From the NCBI RefSeq assembly GCF_900112105.1, contig NZ_FOKV01000001.1, positions 1,054,001 through 1,118,000 on the forward strand: 64,000 nt of DNA. Reading direction: 5' to 3'. Both the position numbers and the translations under genes were made by a program. The notes beneath the pieces were generated by a model. The model saw nothing but the letters and a program-made list of their open reading frames with translations, made no database searches and was not told the origin of the DNA. Shown here piece after piece: positions 26,795 to 62,770 of the stretch. Each line of letters opens with the position of its first letter. Position 1 is the first letter of the stretch. Source of the stretch: Zunongwangia mangrovi (lineage in GTDB: Bacteria > Bacteroidota > Bacteroidia > Flavobacteriales > Flavobacteriaceae).

Positions 26795-29047
26795 GTGATA
26801 AAACGATTTTGCACACTAACCGCCTCTTTTCTACTCTTAATTTCCTGTAAAAATGAGGCAGAAGAAAATCTAAAAAAAACGTCAAAAAATGAAAATTTAG
26901 TTGGTATTGTAAATCCATTTATAGGCACCGGAGGACATGGTCACACATTTCCGGGAGCCAGCCGGCCATTTGGGATGGTACAGGTAAGTCCAGATAACGG
27001 AACAAGTGGATGGGATTGGTGCTCTGGCTATCATTATTCAGATTCTTTAGTCGCAGGTTTTAGTCATTTACATTTATCGGGAACAGGGATTGGAGATCTT
27101 GCCGATCTTCTTTTTATGCCGGTAAATAAAAAGATCGACCTTACAACAACGGTAAAAGAACGAAACGATATTCCTTATCTTTCTAAATATTCTCACGATA
27201 ACGAAACTTCTAAACCTGGTTACTACCAGTTGTTTTTAGAAGATTTCGATATTAATGTAGAACTTATTTCATCGTTAAGAACTGGATACCATAATTATAC
27301 TTATGGAGAAGGAGAAGAACAATCTGTAGTGATCGATCTTGGGTTTGCAATTAACTGGGACGAGCCAACAGAGACTTCAATAAAAATTGAAGACGAAACT
27401 ACCATTACTGGATATCGTCACAGCACAGGTTGGGCAAAAAATCAAAAAGTATTTTTCGTAGCTAAATTTTCTAAGCCGATAATTAATTCTGAAATGTATG
27501 CTGAAGCTAAACTTTCTGAAGCATCTGAAGTTGAAGGAAAGAAAACTTCAGCGCAACTATTCTTCGATACAGCAGATAAAAATCTTCAGGTTGCAGTAGC
27601 TTTATCTTCAGTAAGCTTAGAAAATGCTAAAGAGAACCTTGATAGCGATGCTAATTTCGATTTTGAAGAGATTAAAGCCGAATCTAAAGAAACCTGGAAC
27701 GCAGCACTTTCAGATATTATCGTAGAGACTCCGGTAGATTCTTTAAAGGAAATGTTCTACACTGCACTTTATCACACCAAATTATCGCCGGTAACATTTA
27801 GTGACAAAAATGGCGAATTTCGATTACAGAACGATAGTATTTCCAGTGCTGAAGGAACAACTTATTCTACACTTTCACTTTGGGATACCTTTAGAGCAGA
27901 AAATCCTTTACTAACGATTACTGAGCCAGAAAAAGTTTCAGATATCATCAACTCTATGTTGGCGTATTATGATGAAAGCGGAACTTTACCGGTTTGGACG
28001 CTTTATGGAAACGAGACTAATACCATGACCGGTTACCACTCGGTTCCCGTTATTGTTGAAGCTTATTTTAAAGGAATCGAAGGTTTCGATCCAGAGCGTG
28101 CTTTTGAAGCTCTAAAATCTACAATGATGCAAGATCAACGCGGACTTAAAGAACTAAAAGAGCATGGTTATATTCCGTTCGATCTAGGAAACGAATCTGT
28201 GACCAGCACTTTAGAATATGCTTATAACGACTGGTGTGTGGCGCAAATGGCCAAAGCTTTAGATAAGCAGGAAGATTATGAGTATTTCTCTGAAAGAGCA
28301 GAATCTTATAAAAAACTTTTTGATCCTGAAACCGGATTTATGCGAGGAAAGTCTGCTAAAGGAGAATGGCATTTACCATTTGATCCTAAGCATTCGCAGC
28401 ACCGTGTAAATACAGATTATACTGAAGGTAATGCCTGGCAGCACAGCTGGTTCGTACTTCACGATCCAGAAGGTTTAATTGAACTTCATGGTGGAGCCGA
28501 GCCATTTACTGAAAAATTAGAGCAGCTTTTTAACGAAAGTTCAGAAATTACGGGAGAGCATACTTCCGCGGATATTTCAGGATTAATTGGGCAATATGCT
28601 CATGGTAACGAGCCAAGTCATCATATCGCTTATTTATTCAATAAAGCAGGTAAACCGTGGAGAACTCAATATTATGTTCACGAGATCTTAAATACACAAT
28701 ACAATACCACTCCAAACGGACTTTCAGGTAACGAAGATGCCGGGCAAATGTCTGCATGGTACGTTTTAAGTTCTATGGGATTATATCCTTTTAGTCCAGC
28801 TAGTGCGGTCTACGAAATTGGAACACCAATTTTCGAAAGATCAACGATCAATCTTAAAGATGGTGGCACGTTTGTGATCACAGCTAAAAATGTTTCTCCA
28901 GAAAATTTTTATATCCAATCGGCTAAACTTAACGGAGAAGAATTTAATACTACCACAATTTCTCACGAGCAGATCCTTGCTGGTGGAACTTTAGAATTTG
29001 TAATGGGAAGCGAACCGAATAAAAACTGGGGTGTAGCCAAAAAATAA
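26795..29047 (+). CDS. GH92 alpha-mannosidase, lipoprotein (first of three)
   Basis: A calcium-dependent exo-alpha-mannosidase, 750 residues, the usual GH92 size. The start is GTG 26795, giving a lipoprotein signal ending LLLISC. The mature part begins NPFIGTGGHGHTFPGASRPF and GFSHLHLSGTGIGDL. The substrate and catalytic motifs are NETNTMTGYHSVPVIVEAYF, AHGNEPSHHIAYLF (probable catalytic acid Glu606) and GNEDAGQMSAWYVLSSMG (acidic residues near 647-648). These are all canonical, so an active alpha-mannosidase on N-glycan or mannan side chains is likely. Linkage specificity cannot be set from sequence alone. It is the first gene of the long plus-strand PUL and is followed nine bases later by the symporter. 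Confidence 0.93.
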   Translation: MIKRFCTLTASFLLLISCKNEAEENLKKTSKNENLVGIVNPFIGTGGHGHTFPGASRPFGMVQVSPDNGTSGWDWCSGYHYSDSLVAGFSHLHLSGTGIGDLADLLFMPVNKKIDLTTTVKERNDIPYLSKYSHDNETSKPGYYQLFLEDFDINVELISSLRTGYHNYTYGEGEEQSVVIDLGFAINWDEPTETSIKIEDETTITGYRHSTGWAKNQKVFFVAKFSKPIINSEMYAEAKLSEASEVEGKKTSAQLFFDTADKNLQVAVALSSVSLENAKENLDSDANFDFEEIKAESKETWNAALSDIIVETPVDSLKEMFYTALYHTKLSPVTFSDKNGEFRLQNDSISSAEGTTYSTLSLWDTFRAENPLLTITEPEKVSDIINSMLAYYDESGTLPVWTLYGNETNTMTGYHSVPVIVEAYFKGIEGFDPERAFEALKSTMMQDQRGLKELKEHGYIPFDLGNESVTSTLEYAYNDWCVAQMAKALDKQEDYEYFSERAESYKKLFDPETGFMRGKSAKGEWHLPFDPKHSQHRVNTDYTEGNAWQHSWFVLHDPEGLIELHGGAEPFTEKLEQLFNESSEITGEHTSADISGLIGQYAHGNEPSHHIAYLFNKAGKPWRTQYYVHEILNTQYNTTPNGLSGNEDAGQMSAWYVLSSMGLYPFSPASAVYEIGTPIFERSTINLKDGGTFVITAKNVSPENFYIQSAKLNGEEFNTTTISHEQILAGGTLEFVMGSEPNKNWGVAKK

Positions 29048-29056
29048 ACAGAATTA

Positions 29057-30943
29057 ATGCATATAGTAGATGTAATTATAATTGTCCTTTATATCCTGCT
29101 AACATTGGGAGTAGGTGTTTGGGTCTCTAAAAAAGCCAGCAAAGGTTTAGATTCTTACTTTTTAGGAGGAAAAACTATAAAATGGTATTATCTGGGATTA
29201 AGTAATGGTTCTGGGATGTTCGATGTTTCCGGTACCGCCTGGATGGTAGGAATCCTGTTCTTATACGGGGTGAAAAGTTTCATGTTTATGTGGATGTGGC
29301 CTATCTGGAACCAGGTTTTTGTAATGATGTTCCTGGCGGTTTGGATTAGGCGATCTAAAGTAATGACGGGATCTGAGTGGATTTTAACCCGATTTGGTGA
29401 CGATAAAGCAGGAAGAGCTTCGCATTTGATCGTAGCCATTTTTGCTGTAGTCGCTTCGATAGGTTTTATTGCCTATTTTTTTGAAGGTGCCGGGAAATTT
29501 ATGACCGTGATCCTTCCTTGGGATATGAGTCTCTCTATTGCTGAAACTACCTTGCTAACTTCAGAACAAACTTATGCGTTATTGATCATCTTTTTTACAA
29601 CGATCTATACCATAAAAGGAGGAATGTTCTCTGTAGTTACTACTGAAGTTTTGCAATATCTAATTATGGTTGTTGCCGGAATTTTAGTTGCCGGGTATAC
29701 GTTTTATGCATTTACAGATACAGAGGTGAATCAATTGATTCCTGATGAGTGGAAAAATGTTTTCTTCGGAAATGAACTTACCGGGTTTTGGTCTGGGGAT
29801 TACGAAGAATTTAACCGACTTATAGATACACAGGGTTATAAAATGTTTGGTGCTTTTATTGGGATGACGCTTTTTAAAGGTTTCTTTTCGAGTGTAGCAG
29901 GGCCAACACCGGGTTACGATATGCAGCGAATTCTTTCTACCAGAAATGTAAAAGATGCAGCATATATGAGTGGTTTTACAAACCTGGTTTTATTTATTCC
30001 GCGTTATCTTTTAATAGGTGGTATCGTTTTGATCGGGCTGGTATTTATCGCGCCACAAATGGTAGGAACTGGAGCAGTAACCGGTAACGACCTGGAAGTT
30101 GTTTTACCAAAAGTGATCAATAATCATGTTCCGGTTGGGATCAAAGGATTGTTGCTTGCAGGATTATTAGCGGCGTTCATGTCTACATTCTCTGCTTTTG
30201 TTAACGCAGGGCCAGCATATATAGTAAATGATATTTATAAGAAATACTTTAAACCGGTAGCTTCAGACAGGCATTATGTAAAAGCGAGTCATATTGCATC
30301 TTTTGGTGTAGTTACCCTAGGAGTTATTATGGGCTTTTTTGCAGATTCTATAAACTCGATTACGCTTTGGATCACCAGTGCACTTTATGGTGGTTACGTT
30401 GCCGCAAACTTTTTAAAATGGGTTTGGTGGCGTTTTAATGGCTGGGGATATTTTTGGGGAATGTTAGCAGGTTTGATTATCGCAACGCTTCAGTTTTTCT
30501 TAGATCAAAATAAAGCGAACTTAGAAGCAGGAACTTTACTGCATGACCTTTCAGAAATTCCAGCGATCTATTTATTTCCAATAATTCTTGGCTTCTCGCT
30601 ATTAGGTTCTTTGTTAGGAACTTTCTTAACTAAGCCTACAGATATGGCGACCTTAAATTCATTTTATACTAATGTACATCCCTGGGGTTGGTGGAAGCCG
30701 GTTAGAGATCACTATTCCGAAGAAAAAATAGAGAAAAACAACGAATTTTGGCTGGATATGTTCAATTGTATAATTGGGATCATCTGGCAATCGAGTATGA
30801 TCTTATTGCCAATATTTTTGGTGGTGAGAGATTATAGTAAAACCTGGATGGCTGTAGCCGTTTTTGTATTAACCAGTTTAATACTGAAGTTTACCTGGCT
30901 GGATAAAGTGAAAAATCTGGAGACCAGCGAAGAAGAAATTTAA
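29057..30943 (+). CDS. SSS-family sodium:solute symporter
   Basis: A 628-residue inner-membrane transporter with about fourteen helices. The SSS signatures are SKKASKGLDSYFLGGKTIKW at the N-terminus, GLSNGSGMFDVSGTAWMVG in TM2, GTGAVTGNDLEVVLPKVI and LLLAGLLAAFMSTFSAFVNAGPAYIVNDIY, the conserved helix-8 sodium-site region (A-MST--S--N). The C-terminal extension with several extra helices is usual for the Bacteroidota PUL subgroup. It lies nine bases after a GH92 gene and 78 before GH130, so the likely substrate is mannose or a mannosyl disaccharide. Substrate identity is inferred from neighbours. Confidence 0.9.
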   Translation: MHIVDVIIIVLYILLTLGVGVWVSKKASKGLDSYFLGGKTIKWYYLGLSNGSGMFDVSGTAWMVGILFLYGVKSFMFMWMWPIWNQVFVMMFLAVWIRRSKVMTGSEWILTRFGDDKAGRASHLIVAIFAVVASIGFIAYFFEGAGKFMTVILPWDMSLSIAETTLLTSEQTYALLIIFFTTIYTIKGGMFSVVTTEVLQYLIMVVAGILVAGYTFYAFTDTEVNQLIPDEWKNVFFGNELTGFWSGDYEEFNRLIDTQGYKMFGAFIGMTLFKGFFSSVAGPTPGYDMQRILSTRNVKDAAYMSGFTNLVLFIPRYLLIGGIVLIGLVFIAPQMVGTGAVTGNDLEVVLPKVINNHVPVGIKGLLLAGLLAAFMSTFSAFVNAGPAYIVNDIYKKYFKPVASDRHYVKASHIASFGVVTLGVIMGFFADSINSITLWITSALYGGYVAANFLKWVWWRFNGWGYFWGMLAGLIIATLQFFLDQNKANLEAGTLLHDLSEIPAIYLFPIILGFSLLGSLLGTFLTKPTDMATLNSFYTNVHPWGWWKPVRDHYSEEKIEKNNEFWLDMFNCIIGIIWQSSMILLPIFLVVRDYSKTWMAVAVFVLTSLILKFTWLDKVKNLETSEEEI

Positions 30944-31021
30944 TTAAGAAGTAAAAGTATCCTGATAAGACATCAGGAAGAAAATAATAGAAATCTCGAA
31001 GATTCGAGCAAAATAAAGCAG

Positions 31022-31990
31022 ATGATGAAGAATATACCTTGGCAGGATAAACCTGAGAATTGTAACGATGTACTTTGGAGACATAGCGAAAACCCTATTA
31101 TCGATCGATATGCTATCCCTACTTCAAATAGTATTTTTAATAGTGCTGTTGTGCCTTTTGAAGATGGATTTGCCGGGGTTTTTAGATGTGATAACAAAGC
31201 TGTGCAAATGAATATTTTTGCAGGCTTTAGTAAAGATGGTATCAATTGGGATATTAACCACGAGCCTATCGAAATGCAGGCAGGAAATACCCAAATGATC
31301 GATTCAGATTATAAATACGATCCTCGTGTTACCTTTATCGAAGATCGTTATTGGATTACTTGGTGTAATGGTTACCACGGCCCTACAATTGGTATCGCTT
31401 ACACTTTCGATTTTAAAGAATTTTTTCAGTGTGAAAACGCTTTTTTGCCCTTTAACAGAAACGGAGTTTTGTTCCCTACAAAGATCAACGGTAAATATGC
31501 AATGTTAAGCCGCCCTAGTGATAATGGACATACGCCATTTGGTGATATTTACATTAGCTACAGCCCAGATATGAAATACTGGGGCGAACATCGTTGTGTT
31601 ATGAAAGTTGCTCCGTTTGAACAAAGTGCATGGCAATGCACAAAGATCGGCGCTGGCCCGGTGCCGATCTTAACAGATGAAGGTTGGTTGTTATTCTATC
31701 ACGGTGTTATCGCTACCTGTAACGGATTTAGATATTCGGTTGGTGCAGCCATTTTAGATGAAAACGAACCAAATAAAGTAAAATACCGTTCGCAGCCTTA
31801 TTTATTAGCTCCAGCTGAACTTTACGAAATGACAGGGGATGTGCCAAATGTAGTTTTTCCTTGCGCTACCTTGCATTCTCATGAAGAGGATAAGTTAGCT
31901 TTGTATTACGGGGCAGCAGATACCTGCACAGGCGTTGCTTATGGTAAAATTAGCGAAGTAGTAGACTTTGTAAAAAATAACAGCTTATAA
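31022..31990 (+). CDS. GH130 mannoside phosphorylase (mannosyl-beta-1,4-GlcNAc or related)
   Basis: A 322-residue five-bladed beta-propeller of GH130. The catalytic Asp100 is in [18 protein letters not shown], the DPRV motif of the family. Other conserved parts are [59 protein letters not shown] and [14 protein letters not shown]. It has no signal peptide, so it should be cytosolic. Length and sequence style fit the GH130 group that phosphorolyses mannosyl-beta-1,4-GlcNAc or mannosyl-chitobiose left after alpha-mannosidases trim an N-glycan. Position between the symporter and CBM9-like genes agrees. Mannosyl-glucose phosphorylase activity is an alternative. Confidence 0.88.
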
Positions 31991-31991
31991 A

Positions 31992-33047
31992 ATGAAATCG
32001 ATTTTAGCCATTTTTGGATCTCTTTTTTGTATAAATGCTTTTGCGCAAGAGCCGCCACGTTCTTACGTGTCCTATAAAACTTCAGAAGAAATTGTTATAG
32101 ACGGTAAAGCAGATGAAGCAAGCTGGAAAGAGGCTAAATGGACAGCCGATTTTATAGATATTGAAGGTGATAAGGTCCCAAAGTATAAAACCAATGCAAA
32201 AATGCTTTGGGACGACCAGTATTTTTATATCTACGCCAAATTAGAAGAGCCACATATTTGGGGAACTTTAAAGCAGCGTGATACGGTGATTTTCTATAAT
32301 AACGATTTTGAAGTTTTTATAGATCCTGATGGTGATACCCAAAAATACATGGAGTTTGAAGTAAATGCTTTAAATACTGTTTGGGATTTAATGCTTATCG
32401 AGGCATATCGCGAAGGCGGGCCGGCGATCGATCATTGGGATATTAACAGAATTAAATCTGCCGTAAATATTGAAGGTACTTTAAACGATGCTTCAGATAA
32501 AGATCAATATTGGGAAGTAGAAATTGCCATGCCCTGGGATGCTTTAACCGAAGCGAGTGCAAATGGTAAAATTCCGAAGAATGACTTTTGGCGTGTTAAT
32601 TTTTCTCGTGTAAACTGGGATCACGATCTTAGAGATGGTCGCTATTCAAGAAAGAAAGGTGAAAATGGCCAATATCTGCCAGAATATAACTGGGTTTGGT
32701 CACCACAGGGTGTAATTAATATGCACGAGCCAGAGCATTGGGGATATGTGTTTTTTAGCGACAAAAAAGCTTCAGAAAATATCGAATTCCAGATCCCTGA
32801 AGACGAGCATATTCGCTGGGCGATGTATTCGTTGTACAGAGCACAAAAAAATTATTACTCAAAACATCAAAAATGGGCAAATACTGTAGGTAAACTTCAG
32901 GATTCGCCTGTTTCAGTTTTAAATAAAGAATTAAATCCGAAAATAGAAGTCCATTCTTCAGGATATAATATTAGTGTAGAAAGTCCTTTTTCAGGAGAAA
33001 AATACCTAATTAAAGAAGATGGATCCTTTATTCAATTAACCAAATAA
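31992..33047 (+). CDS. Secreted carbohydrate-binding family 9-like protein
   Basis: A 351-residue exported protein with signal peptide MKSILAIFGSLFCINAFAQ. The beta-sandwich is of CBM9/DOMON type: EEIVIDGKADEASWKEAKWT, MLWDDQYFYIYAKLEEPHI, DFEVFIDPDGDTQKYMEFEV, WEVEIAMPWDAL and FWRVNFSRVNW. Such proteins occur in many Bacteroidota PULs and may bind a glycan or present it to enzymes. It starts one base after the GH130 stop codon, so it is translationally coupled to it. No catalytic domain is visible. Binding target unknown. Confidence 0.82.
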   Translation: MKSILAIFGSLFCINAFAQEPPRSYVSYKTSEEIVIDGKADEASWKEAKWTADFIDIEGDKVPKYKTNAKMLWDDQYFYIYAKLEEPHIWGTLKQRDTVIFYNNDFEVFIDPDGDTQKYMEFEVNALNTVWDLMLIEAYREGGPAIDHWDINRIKSAVNIEGTLNDASDKDQYWEVEIAMPWDALTEASANGKIPKNDFWRVNFSRVNWDHDLRDGRYSRKKGENGQYLPEYNWVWSPQGVINMHEPEHWGYVFFSDKKASENIEFQIPEDEHIRWAMYSLYRAQKNYYSKHQKWANTVGKLQDSPVSVLNKELNPKIEVHSSGYNISVESPFSGEKYLIKEDGSFIQLTK

Positions 33048-33087
33048 TTACCGCTCAGATTGGGCGATTTCAACAAACCTTAATCCT

Positions 33088-34218
33088 ATGAAATTTAGAT
33101 TTTTATTGTTTTCGATATTGGTCGCTTTCTCGACCATTTCGTGTTTAGATAATATGCAAAAGGCGAAAGCAAATACTGCGGAAGCTAACGCGGAAACTGC
33201 AGAAACAACTACTGAAGATTCAGATTTTAAATACTGGACATGGATCACCGCAGATGCCAGCAGAACAGATGAATCTTATACTGAAGAATTCAAAAAATAT
33301 AAAGAGAATGGATTGGATGCAGTTTTAATTAATACTGATACAGATCCAGAATTACTTTCTCGTTTAACGCCACTTGCCAAAGCTGAAGGTTTAGAAGTTC
33401 ATGCCTGGATCATGGCAGTAAATCGCCCGGGGGACGAAGTTGCTTTACAACATCCAGATTGGTACCAGGTAAGCCGTAATGGTGAATCTTGTTATGATAA
33501 TCGCCCTTATGTAGATTATTACCAGTGGTTATGCCCAACCAAAGAAGAATCACGAAACCATATTTTAAGTTTGGTAGAAGGACTGGCAAAAGTAGAAGAT
33601 GTAGAAACGGTACATTTAGATTATATAAGGTTCCCGGATATCTTCCTTCCGATTGCTTTGCTACCTAAGTATGATTTGGATCAAACTACGGAAATGCCAG
33701 AATATGATTTCTGTTATTGTGATGTTTGTATAGCTAAGTTTAAAGAGATGCATCACAAAGATCCTAGAGATACAGACGATCCTCAGATCGATATGGAGTG
33801 GAAACAATTCCGTTTAAACAGAATAAGAGATCTGGTAAACGATGCTTATAAAATCGTTCACGAAAATAACAAAGAGCTTAGCGCGGCAGTATTCCCTTAT
33901 CCAGAAATGGCAGATCATATGGTTCGCCAGCGTTGGGATAAATGGGATATCGACTATGTGCTGCCAATGATCTACAACAATTTCTATAACGAAGAAATAG
34001 ATTGGATTGGTTTTGCTACAAAACAAGGTGTACAGGATCTGGAAGCTAAGAATACCGAATTACATACCGGAATCTATATTCCTGAAATGTCTCCTGAGGA
34101 AGTGACCGAAGCCATCAACCAGGCAAAAGCAAACGGAGCAAAAGGTGTTTCTTTCTTTGACGGAAATGCATTTACTCCAGAAAAACTGGCAGCGGTTAAA
34201 GCAGCAAGTGAAGAATAA
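33088..34218 (+). CDS. Putative GHL10-like glycoside hydrolase, lipoprotein
   Basis: A 376-residue lipoprotein (lipobox near FSTISC). The TIM-barrel of the glycosyl-hydrolase-like 10 family is visible: KYKENGLDAVLINTD, LEVHAWIMAVNRPGD, WYQVSRNGESCYDNRPYVDY, LCPTKEESRNHILSLVEGL, VHLDYIRFPD, FRLNRIRDLVNDAYKIVHEN, and WDIDYVLPMIYNNFYNEEID. The Asp of HLDYIRFPD is a candidate catalytic acid. No activity has been firmly assigned to most GHL10 proteins, so I do not propose a bond. It follows the CBM9-like gene by 40 bases. It may cleave a peptidoglycan or glycoprotein-associated linkage, but this is inference from context only. Confidence 0.75.
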   Translation: MKFRFLLFSILVAFSTISCLDNMQKAKANTAEANAETAETTTEDSDFKYWTWITADASRTDESYTEEFKKYKENGLDAVLINTDTDPELLSRLTPLAKAEGLEVHAWIMAVNRPGDEVALQHPDWYQVSRNGESCYDNRPYVDYYQWLCPTKEESRNHILSLVEGLAKVEDVETVHLDYIRFPDIFLPIALLPKYDLDQTTEMPEYDFCYCDVCIAKFKEMHHKDPRDTDDPQIDMEWKQFRLNRIRDLVNDAYKIVHENNKELSAAVFPYPEMADHMVRQRWDKWDIDYVLPMIYNNFYNEEIDWIGFATKQGVQDLEAKNTELHTGIYIPEMSPEEVTEAINQAKANGAKGVSFFDGNAFTPEKLAAVKAASEE

Positions 34219-34519
34219 TTAGAATTGAGAAGTTAGATTTTAGATCGCTTCGCTGTTATATGTTAGAATTTAGATTATAGAAACTAGACTAGAGAAGAGA
34301 TAGGAAGCAAGAACCAGGACTTATCATTTTAAGTTTTGAATGCTGAATTTTGAATTTTAGCTACTTGCTTTTATTAAACAAATTAATAAGCTATAAGCTG
34401 AGGTTTCTCGGTTTGTAGCTTTACACTTTCAGAAAACTTACTTAAGTAAGGGAAATTAGAAGCTGATGGCTAAAAGCTGTCAGCTTACTGCTTAAAATAT
34501 AGGCTAATCGCTTAAAAAA
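34219..34519 (+). repeat. Intergenic repeat-rich gap (family B copy 2 and other AT-rich repeats)
   Basis: No gene. From 34231 the plus strand reads GTTAGATTTTAGATCGCTTC and then TTAGAATTTAGA, matching the minus-strand copy at 11840-11905. From 34390 a different low-complexity series occurs (AAGCTGATGGCTAAAAGCTG, with nested AGCT-containing inverted repeats). The gap ends with a 24-base stretch at 34492-34515 that recurs near 49270, ending four bases before the GH92 start. Confidence 0.5.
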
Positions 34520-52564: not shown

Positions 52565-52577
52565 TTAAAGAAAAAAG

Positions 52578-54146: not shown

Positions 54147-54186
54147 AAATAAAACAACCGTTTCGATTGTTTCTGTTTAGTTAGGT

Positions 54187-54224: not shown

Positions 54225-54238
54225 AAAATTTAAAATTG

Positions 54239-56629
54239 ATGAAAAAGATTTGCCTTTGTTTTTTACTAATTTCAAGTTTCCTGAATGCTCAGGATTTTAA
54301 AAACGCTCCTTACAAAAATAGTGAGTTAAGTGTGGATGAGAGAGTAGAGAACTTAATTTCTTTAATGAACCTCGATGAAAAGATAGGACAGCTTACCACA
54401 CCGCTTGGTTGGAAGATGTATACTAAAGAGGCAGGAAGTAAGGCAAGCTTAAGCGAACTTTACAAAGAAGAAATAAGAAATAGACATATTGGTGGTTTAT
54501 GGGGAGTTTTAAGAGCAGACCCATGGACTCAAAAAACTTTAGAAACTGGCTTACACCCTAAAGAAGCAGCAAAGATTACCAATGCAATACAAAAATATGC
54601 TATTGAAAATAGTCGTTTAGGAATTCCATTATTACTTGAAGAAGAAGCTATGCACGGGCATATGGCAGTAGGGACTACAGTATTCCCAACTGCGATAGGT
54701 CAGGCTAGTACCTGGAATCCTGATCTGATCAAAAAAATGGCTGAAGTTATTGCTGAAGAAATTAGAGCGCAGGGAGCGAACACCGCTTATGGTCCTATTA
54801 TAGATATCGCCAGAGAGCCAAGGTGGTCTCGAGTAGAAGAAACCTTTGGTGAAGATTCTTACCTTATCGCTCAGATGGGAAAATCTATTGTAAAGGGTTT
54901 TCAGGGAGATAACGAAAGTGATTTAAAAACAAAAAAACATGTTGCTGCCACATTAAAGCATTTTGCTGCTTACGGAGTATCAGAAGGCGGGCATAATGGT
55001 GCTGCAGTTCATATTGGAGAACGCGATCTATTTCAAAATTATATGTATCCGGTTAAAGAAGCAGTAGATAGTGGTATTTTATCGGTGATGACTGCTTATA
55101 GTTCTATTGATGGAGTACCCAGTACAGCGCATAAAAGTCTATTAACAAATACACTTCGTGAAAAGTGGGGCTTTTATGGTTTTGTGATCTCAGACTTAGC
55201 AAGTATCGAAGGTCTTTTGGGAGATCATCATATTGTAGATACTGAAGAAGATGCTGCTGCTATAGCCATGAATGCCGGTGTAGATGTAGATTTAGGAGGA
55301 AATGGCTTCGATGATGCTTTATTAGATGCCGTAAAAGCAGGTAAAGTTTCTGAAGAAAGAATCGATGAAGCTGTAAAAAGAATTCTTGCTGTAAAGTTCA
55401 AATTAGGGCTTTTTGAAGATCCTTTTACCAGCGAAAAAGAAGCTGAAAAGCTAGTAAGGAATACAGAACATATTGAATTAGCCAGAGAAGTTGCTCGCCA
55501 ATCTGTAACGATGCTTAAAAACGAAGATAATCTTCTTCCACTAAGTAAAGATTTAAAGCGTATCGCTGTAATTGGTTCGAATGCAGATATGCAATACAAT
55601 CAGTTAGGAGATTACACTGGCCCGCAATCTGAAGATAATATCGTTACCGCTTTAGAAGGCATTCAGAATAAATTACCAAACGCAACAATAGATTATGTAA
55701 AAGGAACAGCTGTTCGTGATACTACGCAAACCGATATTCCGGCTGCTGTAGAAGCTGCAAAAACTGCTGAAGTTGCCATCGTTGTGTTAGGTGGTTCCAG
55801 TGCCAGAGATTTTAAAACTGAATATCTTGAAACCGGTGCTGCTACTGTTTCCTCAAAAGAAGATGAAATTTTGGGAGATATGGAAAGTGGCGAAGGATTC
55901 GATCGTTCTACCCTTAATTTAATGGGGAAACAGATGGAACTACTTCAAGCCGTTGTGGCCACAGGAACACCAACTGTTTTGGTGTTAATTAAAGGTCGCC
56001 CATTATTGCTAAACTGGCCTTCAGAAAATGTACCAGCTATTTTAGATGCCTGGTATCCCGGGCAAGAAGGTGGTAACGCGATCGCCGATGTTCTTTTTGG
56101 AGATTTTAATCCTGCGGGTAGATTACCGGTTTCTGTACCAAAATCCTTAGGGCAAATTCCGGTATATTATAATTACTGGTTCCCGGTTAGGAGAGATTAT
56201 GTAGAAAGTGATGCAAAACCATTATTTCCATTTGGTTATGGTTTAAGTTATTCTGAATTTGAATATTCAGATTTACAATTGAACACTTCAGGAAAAGGTC
56301 AAAACACTAAAATAAATATTAGCTTAAAAGTATCTAACATTAGCGATATAGATGGTGATGAAGTTGTTCAGCTTTATATTCGCGACATGGTGAGCAGCGT
56401 GCTTAGCCCTATAAAACAACTACGCGGTTTTGAGCGTGTTTCTTTAAAAGCAGGAGAAACCAAAAGTATTCAATTTGAATTGCTTCCGAAGGAATTATCA
56501 CTTTTTGATGCTGAAATGATCCAAAAAGTAGAAGCCGGTGAATTTAAATTAATGATTGGTGCTTCTTCTGAAGATATTAAACTGGAAACAACATTCGAAA
56601 TTTCTAAAACAATTACACTAAACAAATAA
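54239..56629 (+). CDS. GH3 beta-glycosidase (glucosidase/xylosidase type), secreted
   Basis: A 796-residue exported exo-beta-glycosidase (signal peptide to LNAQD). Domains are the GH3 TIM barrel, with LEEEAMHGHMAVGTTVFPTA, LKHFAAYGVSEGGHNGAAVH and the nucleophile Asp319 in FVISDLASIEGL, then the alpha/beta sandwich (RQSVTMLKNEDNLLPL, VLVLIKGRPLLLNWP) and a C-terminal Fn3-like domain (NISDIDGDEVVQLYIRD). The KHFAAYG motif excludes NagZ-type hexosaminidases. Beta-glucosidase or beta-xylosidase activity fits. In plant-type N-glycan loci a GH3 removes core beta-1,2-xylose, which makes that a candidate role. It starts at ATG 54239; the TTG at 54236 only adds one residue. Confidence 0.9.
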   Translation: MKKICLCFLLISSFLNAQDFKNAPYKNSELSVDERVENLISLMNLDEKIGQLTTPLGWKMYTKEAGSKASLSELYKEEIRNRHIGGLWGVLRADPWTQKTLETGLHPKEAAKITNAIQKYAIENSRLGIPLLLEEEAMHGHMAVGTTVFPTAIGQASTWNPDLIKKMAEVIAEEIRAQGANTAYGPIIDIAREPRWSRVEETFGEDSYLIAQMGKSIVKGFQGDNESDLKTKKHVAATLKHFAAYGVSEGGHNGAAVHIGERDLFQNYMYPVKEAVDSGILSVMTAYSSIDGVPSTAHKSLLTNTLREKWGFYGFVISDLASIEGLLGDHHIVDTEEDAAAIAMNAGVDVDLGGNGFDDALLDAVKAGKVSEERIDEAVKRILAVKFKLGLFEDPFTSEKEAEKLVRNTEHIELAREVARQSVTMLKNEDNLLPLSKDLKRIAVIGSNADMQYNQLGDYTGPQSEDNIVTALEGIQNKLPNATIDYVKGTAVRDTTQTDIPAAVEAAKTAEVAIVVLGGSSARDFKTEYLETGAATVSSKEDEILGDMESGEGFDRSTLNLMGKQMELLQAVVATGTPTVLVLIKGRPLLLNWPSENVPAILDAWYPGQEGGNAIADVLFGDFNPAGRLPVSVPKSLGQIPVYYNYWFPVRRDYVESDAKPLFPFGYGLSYSEFEYSDLQLNTSGKGQNTKINISLKVSNISDIDGDEVVQLYIRDMVSSVLSPIKQLRGFERVSLKAGETKSIQFELLPKELSLFDAEMIQKVEAGEFKLMIGASSEDIKLETTFEISKTITLNK

Positions 56630-56639
56630 ACTAGCTAAA

Positions 56640-58094
56640 ATGTTTAAAATGAATAAAATAAAATCCCTACTGTTGGTAGCCTTAGTGTGTGCGGCAAACA
56701 CATTCCAGGCCCAAACGCAAGAAGAAGATGAACACGGCGTGCATGGCCGTTCTGAAACCTATGAAGCACCAACCGATCCTCAGGTTATAGAAAAGCTAGA
56801 TGAATGGGGAGATCTTAAATTCGGTATGCTTATTCATTGGGGGCTTTATTCAGTGCCGGGTATCATGGAAAGCTGGAATTTGGTTTCAGAAGATTGGATC
56901 GAAAGAGATAGCACGATCGCCTATAATGACTATAAAAAATGGTACTGGAATTTAGATAAAATCTTTAATCCGGTAAATTTTGATCCAGATAGCTGGGCAG
57001 ATGCAGCTGAATCTGCAGGGATGAAGTATGTTGTATTTACCACAAAGCATCACGATGGTTTTAATATGTTCGATACAAAACAAACAGATTATAAGATCAC
57101 AAGTGGTCCTTTCCAAAATAATCCAAAAGCAGATGTTACAAAGCATATTTTTGATGCTTTTAGAAAAAAAGATTTTATGATCGGTGCTTATTATTCTAAG
57201 CCCGATTGGCATTCTCAATATTTCTGGTGGGATAAATATGCGACTCCAGATAGAAACGTGAACTACGATATCGAAAAGTACGATTGGAGATGGAATAAAT
57301 TTAAAGAATTTGCTTACAACCAGATCGAAGAATTAATGACCGGTTATGGTGAGATCGATATTCTTTGGTTAGATGGAGGTTGGGTTAGACCAAGAGAAAC
57401 CGTTACCGACGAGGTAAGATCCTGGGGAGCACCAATTCCAGATTTTAGTCAGGAGATCGATATGCCTAAGATTGCTGAAATGGCAAGGGAAAAACAACCA
57501 GGGATAATTTTTGCAGATCGTACAGTACATGGTCCTTACGAGAATTACCAAACGCCAGAGCGTAGAGTGCCAGAAACCAAATTAGATAATCCATGGGAGA
57601 GTAATTTACCTTTAGGAAATAACTGGGGATATGTGCCAAATGATCCTTATAAATCGACAACCAAAGTACTTAATACACTTGTGGATATTGTTTCTAAAGG
57701 AGGGAATATGCTTTTAGGAATAGGACCAAAACCAGATGGAACTTTACCATTAGATGTTATCGATCAATTAGCTGAAATAGGTGATTGGTTAGAGAAAAAT
57801 GGTGAAGCGATCTATGATACTCATGCTATCGACGATTACCAGGACGGAAATGTTTACTTTACAGAAAATGAAGACAAATTATTTGCAATAGCAATGTTCG
57901 AAGATGGTGAAGAATTACCAAAAAAGATAAGCTTCAGCAAAAATTTACCTTCAGAAAACGCTAAGATCAAGTTACTGGAAACCGGTAAAAAAGTAGATTT
58001 TAAAATTAAAGATGGTAAAGTAGAGATTAGCCTTCCAAAGGAAATCCGTTCAAAAAAGAATATTTCAGGAATAGCATTTTCAATAGAAAATTAA
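56640..58094 (+). CDS. GH29 alpha-L-fucosidase, GH29-A-like, secreted
   Basis: A 484-residue exported alpha-L-fucosidase (signal peptide to TFQAQ). The catalytic barrel has KFGMLIHWGLYSVPGIMESW, KYVVFTTKHHDGFNMFDTK and the nucleophile Asp245 in IDILWLDGGWVRP. The FG--IHWG-YSVP signature is that of GH29-A (broad specificity, including alpha-1,2/1,3/1,6 fucose) rather than GH29-B. A short C-terminal beta-sandwich follows. It lies 10 bases after GH3 and 8 bases before the second fucosidase, clearly one transcript. The acid/base residue is not obvious from sequence, as usual for this family. Confidence 0.92.
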   Translation: MFKMNKIKSLLLVALVCAANTFQAQTQEEDEHGVHGRSETYEAPTDPQVIEKLDEWGDLKFGMLIHWGLYSVPGIMESWNLVSEDWIERDSTIAYNDYKKWYWNLDKIFNPVNFDPDSWADAAESAGMKYVVFTTKHHDGFNMFDTKQTDYKITSGPFQNNPKADVTKHIFDAFRKKDFMIGAYYSKPDWHSQYFWWDKYATPDRNVNYDIEKYDWRWNKFKEFAYNQIEELMTGYGEIDILWLDGGWVRPRETVTDEVRSWGAPIPDFSQEIDMPKIAEMAREKQPGIIFADRTVHGPYENYQTPERRVPETKLDNPWESNLPLGNNWGYVPNDPYKSTTKVLNTLVDIVSKGGNMLLGIGPKPDGTLPLDVIDQLAEIGDWLEKNGEAIYDTHAIDDYQDGNVYFTENEDKLFAIAMFEDGEELPKKISFSKNLPSENAKIKLLETGKKVDFKIKDGKVEISLPKEIRSKKNISGIAFSIEN

Positions 58095-58102
58095 ATACAT
58101 AA

Positions 58103-59563
58103 ATGATCCGAAATTTAAACAAAACCATTGCCGGGATTGGTATTGCCAGCCTCTTATTTGCCTGTAACGAAAAGCAGGAAGTTAAAGCACCACAGGCTGT
58201 AGGACCAACGCCAACAAAAGAGCAACTTGCCTGGCATGATATGGAGATGAATGCGTTCATTCATTTTACCACTAATACATTTACAGGTAAAGAATGGGGA
58301 TTTGGTGACGAATCGCCAGAAATTTTTAATCCAACAGCTATTGATGTAGATCAATGGATGGAAACTTTGCAAAAAGCAGGTTTTAAAGGAGTGATTTTAA
58401 CGGCAAAACATCATGATGGTTTTGCACTTTTCCCTTCAGATTATACCGAGCATGATATTGCAAATTCTCCCTACAAAGATGGAAAAGGAGATTTGGTGAA
58501 AGAAGTAGCAGAATCTGCCAGAGCACACGGATTAAAATTTGGGATTTATCTTTCTCCGTGGGATCGTAATCGTGAAGATTATGGAGAGGCATCTTATGTA
58601 GAATATTACCGAAATCAGTTAAAAGAAGTTTTTACTAATTACGGAGATATTTTCGAGATGTGGTTTGATGGAGCTAATGGTGGTGACGGTTACTACGGCG
58701 GCGCTAACGAAGAGCGAAGAATCGATAAACAAAACTATTATGATTGGCCAACAACTTTGGCGATGGTCGAAGAAATGCAACCTGCGGTGCTGTTTTTTAG
58801 TGATGCCGGTCCAGACTTGCGTTGGGTAGGAAACGAAGACGGTGTTGGTGGATCAACAAACTGGAACACAATTACACCAGATACGCTTTATGCCGGGAAA
58901 CCAGGTATTGGCGATGTTTTACAAACAGGATCTAAAGATGGTACAGATTGGATCCCGGCTGAGGTAAATACATCTATTCGCCCGGGTTGGTTTTACCATA
59001 AAGAAGAGGATTCTTTAGTGATGTCTCCAGAAGAATTATTTACAACTTATATGCAATCTGTGGGTAGAGGATCTACTTTGTTGCTTAATGTTCCGCCAGA
59101 TCAAAGAGGGCAGTTTCATGAAAATGATGTAGCTTCTTTACTTGGAATGCGAAAAATTATCGATAGTGTTTTTGCTGAAAATTTAGCTGAAAATGTTCAA
59201 ATCTCGGCTAGTAATTTTAGAGGAGAGTCTGAAGACTATGCTGCGGCGAATTTAATTGATGGAAATGCTGATTCGTTTTGGGTAACCGATGAAGGAGTTA
59301 TTGAATCTTCTATCGAATTAGAATTTGATTCTGCTAAAACGGTTAATTTTGTATTACTACAGGAAAATATAGCATTAGGACAACGTGTAGAAAAGTTTCA
59401 TATTGCAGCAATGATTGATGGTGAATGGGAAGAAATTGCTGAAGGCACTACGATTGGATACAAAAGAATACTTGAAGTTCCTTCTGTAGAAACCACAGCT
59501 CTAAAAGTAGAGTTCAAGGCGGCAAAAGCCAGCCCGGTAATTACTAATCTTGAAATTTATTAA
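58103..59563 (+). CDS. GH29 alpha-L-fucosidase, GH29-B-like, with C-terminal discoidin-like domain
   Basis: A 486-residue lipoprotein (lipobox LLFAC). The barrel has MEMNAFIHFTTNTFTGKEWG, GVILTAKHHDGFALFPSDY and nucleophile Asp189 in IFEMWFDGANGG. The FIHF--NTFT--EWG pattern fits GH29-B enzymes, which prefer alpha-1,3/1,4-fucose in Lewis-type branches. From about residue 365 an F5/8-type domain follows (NFRGESEDYAAANLIDG, SFWVTDEGVIESSIELEF). Together with the GH29-A upstream it would cover core and Lewis-type fucose of a complex N-glycan. It lies eight bases after GH29-A and five bases before GH35. Confidence 0.9.
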   Translation: MIRNLNKTIAGIGIASLLFACNEKQEVKAPQAVGPTPTKEQLAWHDMEMNAFIHFTTNTFTGKEWGFGDESPEIFNPTAIDVDQWMETLQKAGFKGVILTAKHHDGFALFPSDYTEHDIANSPYKDGKGDLVKEVAESARAHGLKFGIYLSPWDRNREDYGEASYVEYYRNQLKEVFTNYGDIFEMWFDGANGGDGYYGGANEERRIDKQNYYDWPTTLAMVEEMQPAVLFFSDAGPDLRWVGNEDGVGGSTNWNTITPDTLYAGKPGIGDVLQTGSKDGTDWIPAEVNTSIRPGWFYHKEEDSLVMSPEELFTTYMQSVGRGSTLLLNVPPDQRGQFHENDVASLLGMRKIIDSVFAENLAENVQISASNFRGESEDYAAANLIDGNADSFWVTDEGVIESSIELEFDSAKTVNFVLLQENIALGQRVEKFHIAAMIDGEWEEIAEGTTIGYKRILEVPSVETTALKVEFKAAKASPVITNLEIY

Positions 59564-59568
59564 GATCG

Positions 59569-61419
59569 ATGCGTATTTTATCAAAACTCGTTCTTCTTGT
59601 ATGTCTTTTCAGCTTTACTGTGCAGGCGCAAGATGAGGTTTTTAAGATTGAAGATGGCGATTTTAAATATAAAGGAGAGTCAATTCATATTTATGCAGGA
59701 GAGATGCATTATGCCAGGATCCCAAAAGAATACTGGCGCCATCGCTTACAAATGATGAAAGCTTTAGGTTTAAATGCTGTAAACACTTATGTTTTCTGGA
59801 ACTATCATAATACCGCTCCGGGAAAATGGGATTGGAAATCAGATAATAAAAACCTAACAGAATTTATAAAACTGGCTGAAGAAGAAGGACTTTTTGTAAT
59901 TCTTCGTCCGGGGCCTTACGCGTGTGCCGAGTGGGAATTTGGAGGTTACCCGTGGTGGCTTCAAAAGAATCCAGATCTTAAGATTCGTCAAAATAACGAA
60001 GCGTTTTTAGATTCTTGTCGCTCGTATATCAACGAGCTTGCAGCGCAGGTAAAACCGCTTCAAGCAAGTAAAGGTGGGAATTTAATTATGGTTCAGGCTG
60101 AAAATGAATTTGGTTCTTTTGTTTCGCAACGAGAGGATATTTCAGCAGAAGACCACAAAGCCTACAAACAAAAGATCTTTGAAATGCTGAAGGATTCTGG
60201 TTTAGACGGGCCGTTTTTCACTTCAGATGGAACATGGTTGTTTAACGGTGGTGCTGTAGAAGGTGCATTGCCCACCGCGAATGGCGAAAATAATATTGCC
60301 AATCTTAAAAAAGCAGTAAACGAATATCATAATGGGGAAGGCCCTTATATGGTAGCCGAATTTTATCCCGGGTGGTTAGACCATTGGGCAGAGCCTTTTA
60401 CAAGAATTAGTGCAGATGCGATTGCTAAACAAACTGAAGTATATCTTAAGAACGATGTAGATTTTAATATTTATATGGTTCACGGCGGTACTAATTTTGG
60501 CTTTACCAGTGGTGCAAACTATAACGACGATCACGATATCCAACCGGATATCACAAGTTATGATTATGATGCACCAATTTCTGAAGCTGGATGGGCAACG
60601 CCAAAATATATGGCGATAAGAAAATTAATGAAGGAATATGTAGAATATGATATTCCTGAAATTCCGGCTCAAATTCCGGTAATAGCTATCCCAGAAATTA
60701 CGTTGGATAAAAAGCAAAACGTGCTCAAATATATTAAATCATCTAAGCCCGTTATAGCCGATGCTCCTATGAGTTTTGAGGAACTAGACCAGGGATTTGG
60801 ATATGTTTTATATCGTAAAAAGTTTACGCAGCCTATAAACGGAAAATTACAAATACCAGGTTTGCGTGATTATGCTACCGTATATGTAAATGGTAAGTAC
60901 GTAGGAAAGCTAAATCGTATTTACAACCAATACGAGATGGATATTAAAATTCCGTTTAATGGGACTTTAGAGATTCTTGTAGAGAATATGGGACGTATAA
61001 ATTACGGAGCTAAAATTACCGAAAATACTAAAGGAATTATTAGTGCGGTAAGCATTAACGATTACGAAATATCTGGTGGTTGGGAAATGTATAAAGCACC
61101 TTTTGATGCTGCACCTAATCTAGAGGAATCAACCGAAGTTAAAGAAGGTTTACCAGTATTGTATTCTGGGGAATTTGATCTGGATACTATAGGAGATACA
61201 TTTCTTGATATGCAAAAATGGGGCAAAGGAATCGTTTTTGTAAATGGCCACAATCTTGGTCGTTACTGGAAAGTTGGTCCACAGCAAACCCTCTATTTAC
61301 CGGGGAGCTGGTTAAAAGAAAAAGGAAATACGATTACAATTTTAGAGCAGCTGAATGAAGACCCAAAATCAAGAATTTCAGGTTTGGAAAGGCCGATTTT
61401 GGACAGCTTGTCTCAATAA
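59569..61419 (+). CDS. GH35 beta-galactosidase, secreted
   Basis: A 616-residue exported beta-galactosidase (signal peptide to TVQAQ). The catalytic TIM barrel starts IYAGEMHYARIPKEYWRHRL and contains LRPGPYACAEWEFGGYPWWL, the acid/base Glu180 in VQAENEFGSF and the nucleophile Glu264 in VAEFYPGW, then MVHGGTNFGFTSGANY. Two beta-galactosidase jelly-roll domains follow (LQIPGLRDYATVYVNG, GIVFVNGHNLGRYWKVGPQQ). GH35 enzymes often cut beta-1,3 or beta-1,4 galactose. In this locus, beta-1,3-galactose of a Lewis a-type plant antenna would be a fitting substrate. It ends the GH3-GH29-GH29-GH35 unit and is followed by two terminators. Confidence 0.93.
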   Translation: MRILSKLVLLVCLFSFTVQAQDEVFKIEDGDFKYKGESIHIYAGEMHYARIPKEYWRHRLQMMKALGLNAVNTYVFWNYHNTAPGKWDWKSDNKNLTEFIKLAEEEGLFVILRPGPYACAEWEFGGYPWWLQKNPDLKIRQNNEAFLDSCRSYINELAAQVKPLQASKGGNLIMVQAENEFGSFVSQREDISAEDHKAYKQKIFEMLKDSGLDGPFFTSDGTWLFNGGAVEGALPTANGENNIANLKKAVNEYHNGEGPYMVAEFYPGWLDHWAEPFTRISADAIAKQTEVYLKNDVDFNIYMVHGGTNFGFTSGANYNDDHDIQPDITSYDYDAPISEAGWATPKYMAIRKLMKEYVEYDIPEIPAQIPVIAIPEITLDKKQNVLKYIKSSKPVIADAPMSFEELDQGFGYVLYRKKFTQPINGKLQIPGLRDYATVYVNGKYVGKLNRIYNQYEMDIKIPFNGTLEILVENMGRINYGAKITENTKGIISAVSINDYEISGGWEMYKAPFDAAPNLEESTEVKEGLPVLYSGEFDLDTIGDTFLDMQKWGKGIVFVNGHNLGRYWKVGPQQTLYLPGSWLKEKGNTITILEQLNEDPKSRISGLERPILDSLSQ

Positions 61420-61465
61420 GTCTTCATGTTATGTTCACATAAAAGTGAATAGTTTGTTTGACAAC

Positions 61466-61496
61466 GGAAGGAGGACCGCCATCCTCCTTCCTTTTT
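61466..61496 (+). terminator. Rho-independent terminator 1 after GH35
   Basis: GGAAGGAGGA (61466-61475) and TCCTCCTTCC (61482-61491) form a perfect 10-bp stem with loop CCGCCA and a TTTTT tail. It ends the GH3-GH35 unit 46 bases after its last stop codon. Confidence 0.88.
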
Positions 61497-61586
61497 AAAA
61501 AAGTTAGTTCAATACTCCTAATAGTTTTATGGGAAGTATTAAATATAGAATTTCAAGTAAGTGTAAGTTTGTTTCATACATTGCGA

Positions 61587-61620
61587 GGGGAGAGGAGTAG
61601 TTTACCTCTTCCCTTTTTTT
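61587..61620 (+). terminator. Rho-independent terminator 2, before the BNR gene
   Basis: GGGGAGAGG (61587-61595) and CCTCTTCCC (61605-61613) form a 9-bp stem with one G-U and loop AGTAGTTTA, with seven Ts after it. It lies 90 bases downstream of the first terminator. An exact -7 box, TAAGTTTG, lies at 61564-61571 between them, so the interval could carry a very short RNA. Confidence 0.8.
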
Positions 61621-61732
61621 ACTCGATAATCGAGATTAAATTAATTTTCGTCCTTCTATTGTAGTGCTTCTTGTTAACACATGATTTACCAATAATCTTC
61701 ATTTCATTGGAGAATTAAAATTTTCAGAACAT

Positions 61733-62770
61733 ATGAAAGCCAAATTCGTTGTTTTAGCCGTATTTTTTAGTTTGAAATTAATTGCTCAGCAAAAGGTGAA
61801 ATTTGAAGTTTTAGACTCTGGATTTATTTATGCTGAAGCTAATTTTCCCAATGCGCATGCTTCTACGATCGAAGAATTAGATAATGGCGATCTAATTGCC
61901 GCCTGGTTTGGTGGTACGCACGAAAGACATCCAGATGTTAGCATTTATACTAGTAAAAAAAACAAGAATGGTTGGTCTTCTCCTAAGAAAGTTGCCACCG
62001 GTTTTCAAAATGATACGCTAAGTTACCCAACATGGAATCCTGTACTGTTTAATACTGAAAATAAACTCTTTTTATTTTACAAAATTGGACCTTCACCTTC
62101 AACCTGGTGGGGCGCTTATAAAACTTCAACAAATAATGGCGAAACCTGGAGCGATAAAAAATTATTGCCAGAAGGTATTTTAGGACCAATAAAAAACAAG
62201 CCAATTCAGTTAGAAAATGGCCGAATTGTAAGTCCGTCTAGTGTAGAACTTCAGGATGGTGAAATTTGGCATGCTCACATAGAAATTTCAGACGATCTTG
62301 GTAGAACCTGGCGCAAAGTTAAGGTGAATCAGGATTCAGAATATAAAGTAATTCAGCCTACAATTGTTCAGCTTACAAATGGCGATTTAAAAGCTTTTTT
62401 CAGAAGTGATCAAGATGTTGTTTTAGAAAGTTTCAGCAAAGATCATGGAGAAACCTGGAGTGATTTTAGTGCTTCAGAACTTGCAAACCCAAATTCAGGA
62501 ATCGATGCTGTACGTCTAAAAAACGGCGGATTTCTAATGGTTTATAATCCTATGGCTAGTGGAGACGACTGGTGGGATGGTAGAAGTAAACTGAATTTAG
62601 CATATTCTGAAGATGCCGAGCATTGGCAAGACGTTTTAAAACTCGAAAATGAGGAAGAAGGCGAGTTTAGCTACCCGGCAATAATTCAGGCTGAAAACGG
62701 CGAAATTCATATCACCTATACCTACGATCGAAAAAAGATAAAATATTTTAGGTTGAAACGATCTAATTGA
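61733..62770 (+). CDS. Sialidase-fold BNR-repeat protein, secreted (not assigned as a true sialidase)
   Basis: A 345-residue exported protein (signal peptide to LIAQQ) with a six-bladed propeller of the BNR_2/sialidase superfamily. Three Asp-boxes are visible: STNNGETWSD, SDDLGRTWRKV and SKDHGETWSD. The N-terminal pattern PNAHASTIEELDNGDLIAAW and FGGTHERHPDVSIY is that of the plant- and Bacteroidota-type neuraminidase-like family. The FRIP arginine motif of GH33 sialidases is absent, so sialic acid cleavage is not supported. It may act on another sugar or lactone. It is separated from the GH35 unit by two terminators and ends immediately against the opposing transporter gene. Confidence 0.82.
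   Translation: MKAKFVVLAVFFSLKLIAQQKVKFEVLDSGFIYAEANFPNAHASTIEELDNGDLIAAWFGGTHERHPDVSIYTSKKNKNGWSSPKKVATGFQNDTLSYPTWNPVLFNTENKLFLFYKIGPSPSTWWGAYKTSTNNGETWSDKKLLPEGILGPIKNKPIQLENGRIVSPSSVELQDGEIWHAHIEISDDLGRTWRKVKVNQDSEYKVIQPTIVQLTNGDLKAFFRSDQDVVLESFSKDHGETWSDFSASELANPNSGIDAVRLKNGGFLMVYNPMASGDDWWDGRSKLNLAYSEDAEHWQDVLKLENEEEGEFSYPAIIQAENGEIHITYTYDRKKIKYFRLKRSN

Follow-up and report, generated by a model that had tools for sequence, protein, structure and literature searches.

The question raised by this locus is how N-glycans are freed from protein where no recognised releasing enzyme is encoded. The window analyzed is a stretch of 64,000 nucleotides from Zunongwangia mangrovi (genome of 4.13 Mb in 32 contigs, 99.99% complete), in which positions 26795-62770 hold 18 consecutive open reading frames (ORFs), all on the + strand and with intergenic gaps of -11 to 400 bases, the value of -11 depending on a mechanically assigned TTG start of SusD1. 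Pfam analysis gave the gene order as GH92, SSF symporter, GH130, CBM9-like, GHL10, GH92, GH20 with an F5/8C domain, GH92, SusC and SusD, followed by an alpha/beta hydrolase, SusC, SusD, GH3, GH29, GH29 with an F5/8C domain, GH35 and BNR_2. An earlier reading, made from the sequence alone (the sequence-only reading), had described here a one-strand polysaccharide utilization locus (PUL) for N-glycan with three GH92, GH130, GH20, GH3, two GH29, GH35 and two SusC/D pairs. The ORF list and Pfam confirmed every family that it named and added five genes that it had not listed (the SSF symporter, the CBM9-like protein, GHL10, the alpha/beta hydrolase and BNR_2). SusC/SusD, GH92 exo-mannosidases, GH20 and a GH130 of the Man-GlcNAc type thus occur together, as in an N-glycan PUL. 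The sequence-only reading had also pointed to the lack of PNGase, GH18 and GH85 in the locus, and the Pfam scan of the locus proteins indeed detected none of the three.

The substrate of the locus is in all probability N-glycan. As to its degradation, we favour, with a probability of about 0.6, a two-module system in which release would proceed by proteolysis plus glycosylasparaginase (AGA), the CBM9-GHL10 pair would act on the chitobiose core, and GH130 would complete the process by phosphorolysis. The order of gene types is common to Zunongwangia atlantica and Z. pacifica, up to an SLC13-type gene at 62771, and therefore the locus is no accident of assembly. Outside the first SusC/D pair its proteins are 82-99% identical to those of Z. 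atlantica and Z. pacifica.

The conservation of the locus was profiled through its GHL10 gene. Of 213 GHL10 relatives in genome contigs the best 80 were kept, a choice that leans to close relatives, and flanks of at most 10 kb were taken, hence absence of a gene from a locus is no proof that it is missing. Gene labels are best BLAST matches to proteins of the window, with identities that in some cases fall to 28-35%; labelled gene clusters were checked by Pfam/NCBIfam on representatives. This analysis revealed a recurring Flavobacteriaceae cassette: histidine kinase/response regulator, GH92, SSF, GH130, CBM9, GHL10, GH20 and GH92. GH130 was present in 69 of the 80 loci. These 69 also contained CBM9 (69), SSF (67), histidine kinase (66), GH92a and GH20 (65 each), response regulator (64) and GH92c (56), together with Asparaginase_2-type (50), GH29A-like (48), upstream NagB-type (35), GH35 (26), GH92b (25), GH3-like (24), GH2 (16), GH18 (5) and PNGase (4) genes. 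Either AGA or PNGase was found in 54 of them. The AGA genes of relatives are named from Pfam Asparaginase_2 plus similarity, and 44 of the 51 in the full set of 80 loci have an RR signal motif. Marine and soil Flavobacteriaceae appear to share one N-glycan cassette.

The same linkage was seen at the level of whole genomes. We sampled 199 genomes of the family, nearly one per genus, kinship being otherwise uncorrected in the p values; the lists were made by hand and cut-offs were set after the results had been seen (GHL10, E <1e-140, 29 of 46 genomes with any match; PNGase, E <1e-40, 16 of 43; cassette-type AGA, identity of at least 60%, 23 genomes). Cassette-type AGA occurred in 18 of 29 genomes with GHL10 versus 5 of 170 without it (p 5e-14), and PNGase in 9 of 29 versus 7 of 170 (p 5e-5). 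GHL10 stretches from 20 of the 29 positive genomes included 14 with GH130. The PNGase C-terminal domain (PF09113) was matched in 43 of the 199 genomes, 16 of them strongly. When 20 kb around nine strong PNGase places were inspected, PNGase lay inside cassette genes in six (L100-L105), always with GH92c plus further GH92, GH20, AGA, GH130 or GHL10 genes. Another place (L099) also had GH92c; L106 and L107 were without the cassette; both had a GH20 homologue, and L107 a GH92 as well. GH92c homologues were further present in seven of ten short PNGase loci (L085-L094), and L034 holds a PNGase F with both Pfam domains. N-glycan as the substrate, already proposed by the sequence-only reading, is thus backed by PNGase F and/or glycosylasparaginase-type genes in the copies of the cassette in other genera.

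The enzymes of the first module agree with this substrate. Three putative alpha-mannosidases match PF07971: GH92a (26795-29047; E 7e-179, also TIGR01180, with a lipobox-like start), GH92b (34520-36766; E 1.5e-176) and GH92c (39365-41602; E 3e-153), the last being of a type that adjoins PNGase F at other loci. The GH20 beta-hexosaminidase with its F5/8C domain (36871-39198; PF00728, E 8e-124) has a lipobox-like start as well. The SSF sodium:solute symporter (29057-30943; PF00474) is presumed to reside in the inner membrane, and no signal peptide was seen in GH130 (31022-31990). In a search against solved structures the best match of GH130 was UHGB_MP (4udg, E 1.5e-153), with 1vkd (3e-121) further down, and enzymes for beta-1,2-mannosides and Man-Glc were far off, at 1e-37 or weaker. 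UhgbMP acts on Man-GlcNAc. The protein is accordingly labelled UhgbMP-like, of the mannosyl-GlcNAc phosphorylase type; GH130 is listed among enzymes for Man-beta-1,4-GlcNAc in a review (PMC10154615).

Which enzyme, then, releases the glycan in Z. mangrovi? PNGase F (PF09113), GH163 (PF16126) and GH85 (PF03644) gave no match in the whole genome, the PNGase A family lying outside this search. As positive controls, PF09113 was matched in the 43 family genomes mentioned above, GH85 in one control genome, and PF16126 in one control genome below its cut-off. The sole GH18 found in the genome (L004 9228-10418, - strand) carries a degenerate catalytic motif: it reads DGIDLVLEYP, with loss of the motif aspartate, and in another GH18 group nine of ten relatives read DG-D-DWE at the same site. 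As far as searched, neither locus nor genome holds PNGase F, a GH18 endo-beta-N-acetylglucosaminidase, GH85 or GH163, and the puzzle posed by the sequence-only reading, together with the genome search that it suggested, ends in the same absence genome-wide. GH18 was also considered as the release enzyme in relatives. It occurs in ten of their loci, in five of these between CBM9 and GHL10, and nine of the ten have the DWE-type motif, the tenth being missed by the pattern; this motif is chitinase-like, and the candidate was rejected.

Z. mangrovi does have a glycosylasparaginase gene of its own (C25:198898-199872), 880 kb from the locus. Its best PDB matches are 3ljq and 1p4k (E 4e-111), which we take to come from Elizabethkingia meningoseptica, and the protein contains an HDT autoproteolysis (Asp-Thr) site and an RR (Tat) signal. 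Glycosylasparaginases are described as accepting asparagine-oligosaccharides only when these carry a single amino acid (PMC6960285), and therefore proteolysis must precede their action. A second gene (L097) was dropped from consideration because its product resembles isoaspartyl peptidases (NCBIfam 350 bits against a cut-off of 567).

From these data we infer the release route in Z. mangrovi and suggest the following order of events. SusC/D would take up the glycopeptides. The second module (GH29-B, GH35, GH3 and GH29-A) would strip fucose and galactose from the antennae and xylose and fucose from the core, GH20 would take off antennary GlcNAc, and the three GH92 enzymes would remove alpha-mannose. 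After proteolysis the exported (Tat) glycosylasparaginase would free the Man-GlcNAc-GlcNAc(-Asn) core from Asn with no PNGase or classical endoglycosidase. CBM9-GHL10 may then split or handle the HexNAc-beta-1,4-HexNAc core. Import of the short product would fall to the SSF symporter, and cytoplasmic GH130 would phosphorolyse Man-beta-1,4-GlcNAc. If so, N-glycan release in bacteria may take place at the glycosyl-asparagine step and not by PNGase.

The core step is tentatively assigned to the CBM9-GHL10 pair. The CBM9-like protein (31992-33047; PF06452, E 1.5e-10) has a signal-peptide-like start and accompanies GHL10 in all 80 loci, the 69 with GH130 and the 11 without. GHL10 (33088-34218), a putative TIM-barrel lipoprotein, exceeds the cut-offs of both PF02638 (37.5 bits versus 27.9) and PF13200 (DUF4015; 36.4 versus 27); it is 97% identical to its counterpart in Z. 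atlantica and 93% in Z. pacifica, and a lipobox pattern is present in 75 of 80 relatives. Nothing else in the cassette is as constant as this pair, and core cleavage is its candidate function.

We modelled GHL10 from an alignment of 49 of 81 sequences (pLDDT 78.9; 48.6 for a single-sequence model), and a fold search placed the model among TIM barrels. The top match was Cwp19 (E 3.5e-13, TM 0.56, 14% identity), and PgaB had rank 38. Among 715 matches with E <0.001, beta-amylases, GH164 and other TIM barrels scored alike, so function cannot be read from the fold alone. Sequence comparison of GHL10 with the PDB, single or profile, gave nothing meaningful; a canonical GHL10 protein matched Cwp19 by sequence at E 9e-75. 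Cwp19, reported as a lytic transglycosylase (PMC6016235, partial text), is thus alike in Pfam family, above the cut-off, and as top fold match, and it differs in the low identity of the structural match and at its proposed active site (PMC5765458, partial text), where the window protein has DY for DD. The family presumably also includes DigH of Escherichia coli, besides Cwp19. Unlike these two enzymes, as far as the consulted part of the DigH report shows (PMC12288456), the window GHL10 is paired with a CBM9-like gene.

Five loci of Christiangramia/Gramella (L014, L021, L022, L025 and L030) suggest a link of the pair to another polymer. They hold CBM9-GHL10 together with SusCD, MurQ, a canonical GHL10 and GH18, some of them also a NagP-like permease, a ROK kinase and an epimerase-like gene (representatives were scanned in L025); they look like peptidoglycan-salvage PULs. 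A FastTree phylogeny was computed with local supports, and a single distant sequence served as its root, as the distant ones formed no single group. In this tree GHL10 of the MurQ loci fell within the cassette clade, together with sequences from Salegentibacter cassettes (support 0.994). Since the N-glycan core and peptidoglycan share the HexNAc-beta-1,4-HexNAc bond, this bond is the likely target of GHL10. That GHL10 is an N-glycan core enzyme is nevertheless less probable than not. Equally doubtful is the wider idea that CBM9-GHL10 could represent a novel type of enzyme for the N-glycan core: a TIM-barrel lipoprotein that cleaves the chitobiose core, belongs to none of GH18, GH85 and GH163, is related to peptidoglycan-type GHL10, is used family-wide with glycosylasparaginase in a lysosome-like route and was later recruited into muropeptide salvage. 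If true, such a bacterial enzyme would be useful in glycoprotein analysis. Through the cassette this uncharacterised pair is linked to a defined substrate, and a role of GHL10 beyond peptidoglycan becomes directly testable.

A number of findings weigh against the two-module reading with release by glycosylasparaginase. The glycosylasparaginase of Z. mangrovi belongs not to the cassette clade but to a widespread one, found in 127 of 199 genomes (E <1e-80); since most genomes of the family have it, its presence is not specific. By NCBIfam, this protein and the AGA proteins of relatives show a sub-threshold beta-aspartyl-peptidase match only. Ten of the 29 GHL10 genomes, Z. mangrovi included, are without strong PNGase and without cassette-type AGA. 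One genome (G155) has the GH130 cassette (L120) and no strong AGA of either clade, the best E being 4e-13; there GHL10 or an unknown enzyme is the sole candidate. Nine of the 29 GHL10 genomes have PNGase too, so GHL10 is not simply a PNGase substitute, and 11 of the 80 GHL10 loci, including one from a contig of 5 kb, have no GH130. Asp196 of Cwp19, the second D of the DD motif, proposed by conjecture as catalytic (PMC5765458, partial text), aligns to Tyr179 here and in 15 distant relatives; the same alignment has Asp in five canonical GHL10 members, and only the neighbouring Asp is conserved in the window GHL10 type. CBM9-GHL10 pairs about 40% identical to the window GHL10 also lie between trpB and trpA in several genera (L135, L136, L137, L138 and L142; trp genes checked by NCBIfam in L135 and L137 and judged by the appearance of neighbours in the others), and hence another, perhaps envelope, role came first or in parallel. 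Finally, the second solved match of GH130 is a beta-1,4-mannooligosaccharide phosphorylase (5ayd, E 3e-140).

Some of these findings could be explained by an ordinary N-glycan system, in which an unrecognised PNGase or endoglycosidase, or other organisms, would perform the release and CBM9-GHL10 would be an accessory without a part in it. The absence of release genes rests on family searches, and unrecognised families are possible; the coexistence of PNGase with GHL10 in relatives and the loss of the canonical catalytic Asp point the same way. This explanation has to contend with the constancy of CBM9 (80 of 80) and GH130 (69 of 80), which exceeds that of AGA (51 of 80) or PNGase (4 of 80), counts that are limited by the flanks and in which GHL10 is present by construction. 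We regard it as unlikely, while giving it real weight.

The second module comprises SusC2/SusD2 (49526-54146, by Pfam) and five further genes. GH3 (54236-56629; PF00933/PF01915) has a beta-xylosidase as its closest solved match (7zb3, E 2.9e-170), with beta-glucosidases not far behind. Both GH29 proteins, putative alpha-L-fucosidases, match PF01120 and received their A/B labels here from the nearest solved enzymes: the one at 56640-58094 is nearest to 6gn6, named alpha-L-fucosidase (GH29-A type), and the one at 58103-59563, with an F5/8C domain, to GH29-B-type enzymes (8ayr, E 6e-147; 3mo4 and 3ues carry the name alpha-1,3/4-fucosidase). GH35, a putative beta-galactosidase (59569-61419; PF01301, E 1.4e-100), is followed by the BNR_2 protein. 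Judging by families, whose specificity cannot be read from sequence, we lean slightly towards a set fitted to core xylose, core fucose and Lewis a. Apart from the enzyme of the galactose step, this set coincides with the one reported for plant N-glycans in Bacteroides (PMC9522356). The xylose/fucose set is shared in part with insect N-glycans, and mollusc N-glycans also share parts of it; the insect overlap weakens the plant or algal specificity.

Orthologues of GH3 (E 1e-200 or better) were found in 5 of the 199 genomes, all five GHL10-positive (p 5e-5), with at most five candidates scored per genome and two of the five genomes, Zunongwangia-like, representing one genus. In Salegentibacter salinarum (L130) the order GH3-GH29A-GH29B stands behind the cassette, joined with SusCD, and in Sinomicrobium (L131 and L132) it forms a separate locus. 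Two further genera have it with GH35 and BNR (L160 and L161). In one of these (L160, genome G117) the module lies on a contig apart from the cassette, ends with NagB and has a sugar permease; in the other (L161) a GH20-like gene accompanies it. In Salegentibacter oa5 (L134) an AGA-like gene (48%) comes after SusCD-GH3-GH29A. Since the module is found alone or beside the cassette in several genera, it is a unit that can be transferred and that has come together with N-glycan genes repeatedly. The single PUL of the sequence-only reading accordingly stands as regards the shared strand and contiguous genes, but not as one unit, since the locus joins two separable modules.

Separability could also mean that two unrelated PULs lie side by side, the cassette at 26795-41602 serving N-glycan or high-mannose glycan and the genes at 49526-62770 a polysaccharide that bears fucose, xylose or galactose, as the two SusC/D pairs, the solitary module of Sinomicrobium and its position on another contig in G117 would suggest. 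The union of cassette, SusCD, GH3, GH29A and GH29B in S. salinarum argues against this, as do the AGA-like gene closing the oa5 locus, the confinement of GH3 orthologues to GHL10-positive genomes among the 199, and the GH20-like gene or NagB that accompanies the module (L161 and L160); we consider two unrelated PULs improbable. An alpha-mannan (fungal) or beta-mannan PUL is very improbable, for although GH92 enzymes serve alpha-mannan too, a marine Salegentibacter alpha-mannan operon has been published (PMC10154615, partial text) and the second GH130 match is a mannooligosaccharide phosphorylase, Pfam detected no GH76, GH99, GH125 or endo-mannanase family in the locus, and GH20 and the PNGase/AGA neighbours in relatives indicate N-glycan.

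N-glycan loci are of a known kind. Plant N-glycan loci have been described in Bacteroides massiliensis, B. vulgatus and B. helcogenes (PMC9522356); according to the part of that report consulted, they share with this locus GH92, GH3, GH29, GH130 and SusC/D, a PNGase adjoins a GH92, as in the Flavobacteriaceae relatives of this cassette, and the galactose step is done by GH2, in place of which GH35 is found here. The present locus differs in that no PNGase was found, that CBM9-GHL10 and SSF belong to the core and the histidine kinase is of PF06580 type, and that relatives of the cassette have glycosylasparaginase-type genes. PNGase F and glycosylasparaginase of E. meningoseptica were studied as single enzymes (PMC6960285, partial text), whereas the AGA of relatives here sits in a mannosidase cassette. 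No publication on a Flavobacteriaceae N-glycan cassette was found in a literature search judged by titles and abstract openings; as far as that search goes, the cassette with constant CBM9-GHL10 and its tie to glycosylasparaginase is new. Lysosomal breakdown of N-glycans uses glycosylasparaginase plus chitobiase. The order proposed above (fucosidase, Asn release, core split, exoglycosidases) would resemble that route and differ from it in being bacterial, in phosphorolysis replacing beta-mannosidase, and in having GHL10, not GH18.

The two SusC/D pairs have different histories. SusC1/SusD1 (41817-46491; PF13715, PF07715, PF00593 and PF12741) shares only 25-40% identity with its positional counterparts in Z. 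atlantica, Z. pacifica and the congener G100, most flanking genes being above 80%; such low identity among congeners means that the pair has been exchanged between species or diverges fast, and by these comparisons the outer-membrane pair seems to have been swapped between species. SusC2/SusD2 is 85-88% identical in Z. atlantica and Z. pacifica (L128 and L129), and G100 has one SusC/D pair only (L163). Between the pairs lies an alpha/beta hydrolase of 863 aa (46534-49125; S9/esterase-like, PF00326 and, weakly, PF00756), which we weighed as a candidate release peptidase. It is present in 12 of the 199 genomes, and its genomic context elsewhere varies: ten stretches were fetched, three of which (L150, L155 and L159) place it near SusCD, GH20 or GH92 genes, the rest mostly not, and in G144 it likewise stands behind a SusCD pair (L150). 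Its occurrence in 9 of 29 GHL10-positive versus 3 of 170 GHL10-negative genomes was not used as evidence, because genome size may explain the association.

The sialidase-like propeller protein BNR_2 (61733-62770; PF13088, E 1e-89) travels with the GH3-GH29-GH35 module and is retained in L160 and L161. Against the PDB it matches sialidases at E 7e-12 only, a weak similarity. To our knowledge, plant glycans are without sialic acid. Upstream of the locus and divergent from it, on the - strand, lies the histidine kinase (25560-26651; PF06580), and next to it, also on the - strand, a putative response regulator (24844-25563), called so as the neighbour of the kinase without a family scan. A GH113 family protein is encoded at 17203-18246, upstream of the locus and outside it. 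Three more GH92 genes, two of them in tandem, are present elsewhere in the genome (L002 7993-12693 and L003 10681-12615), and their products are 27-40% identical to the GH92 proteins of the locus.

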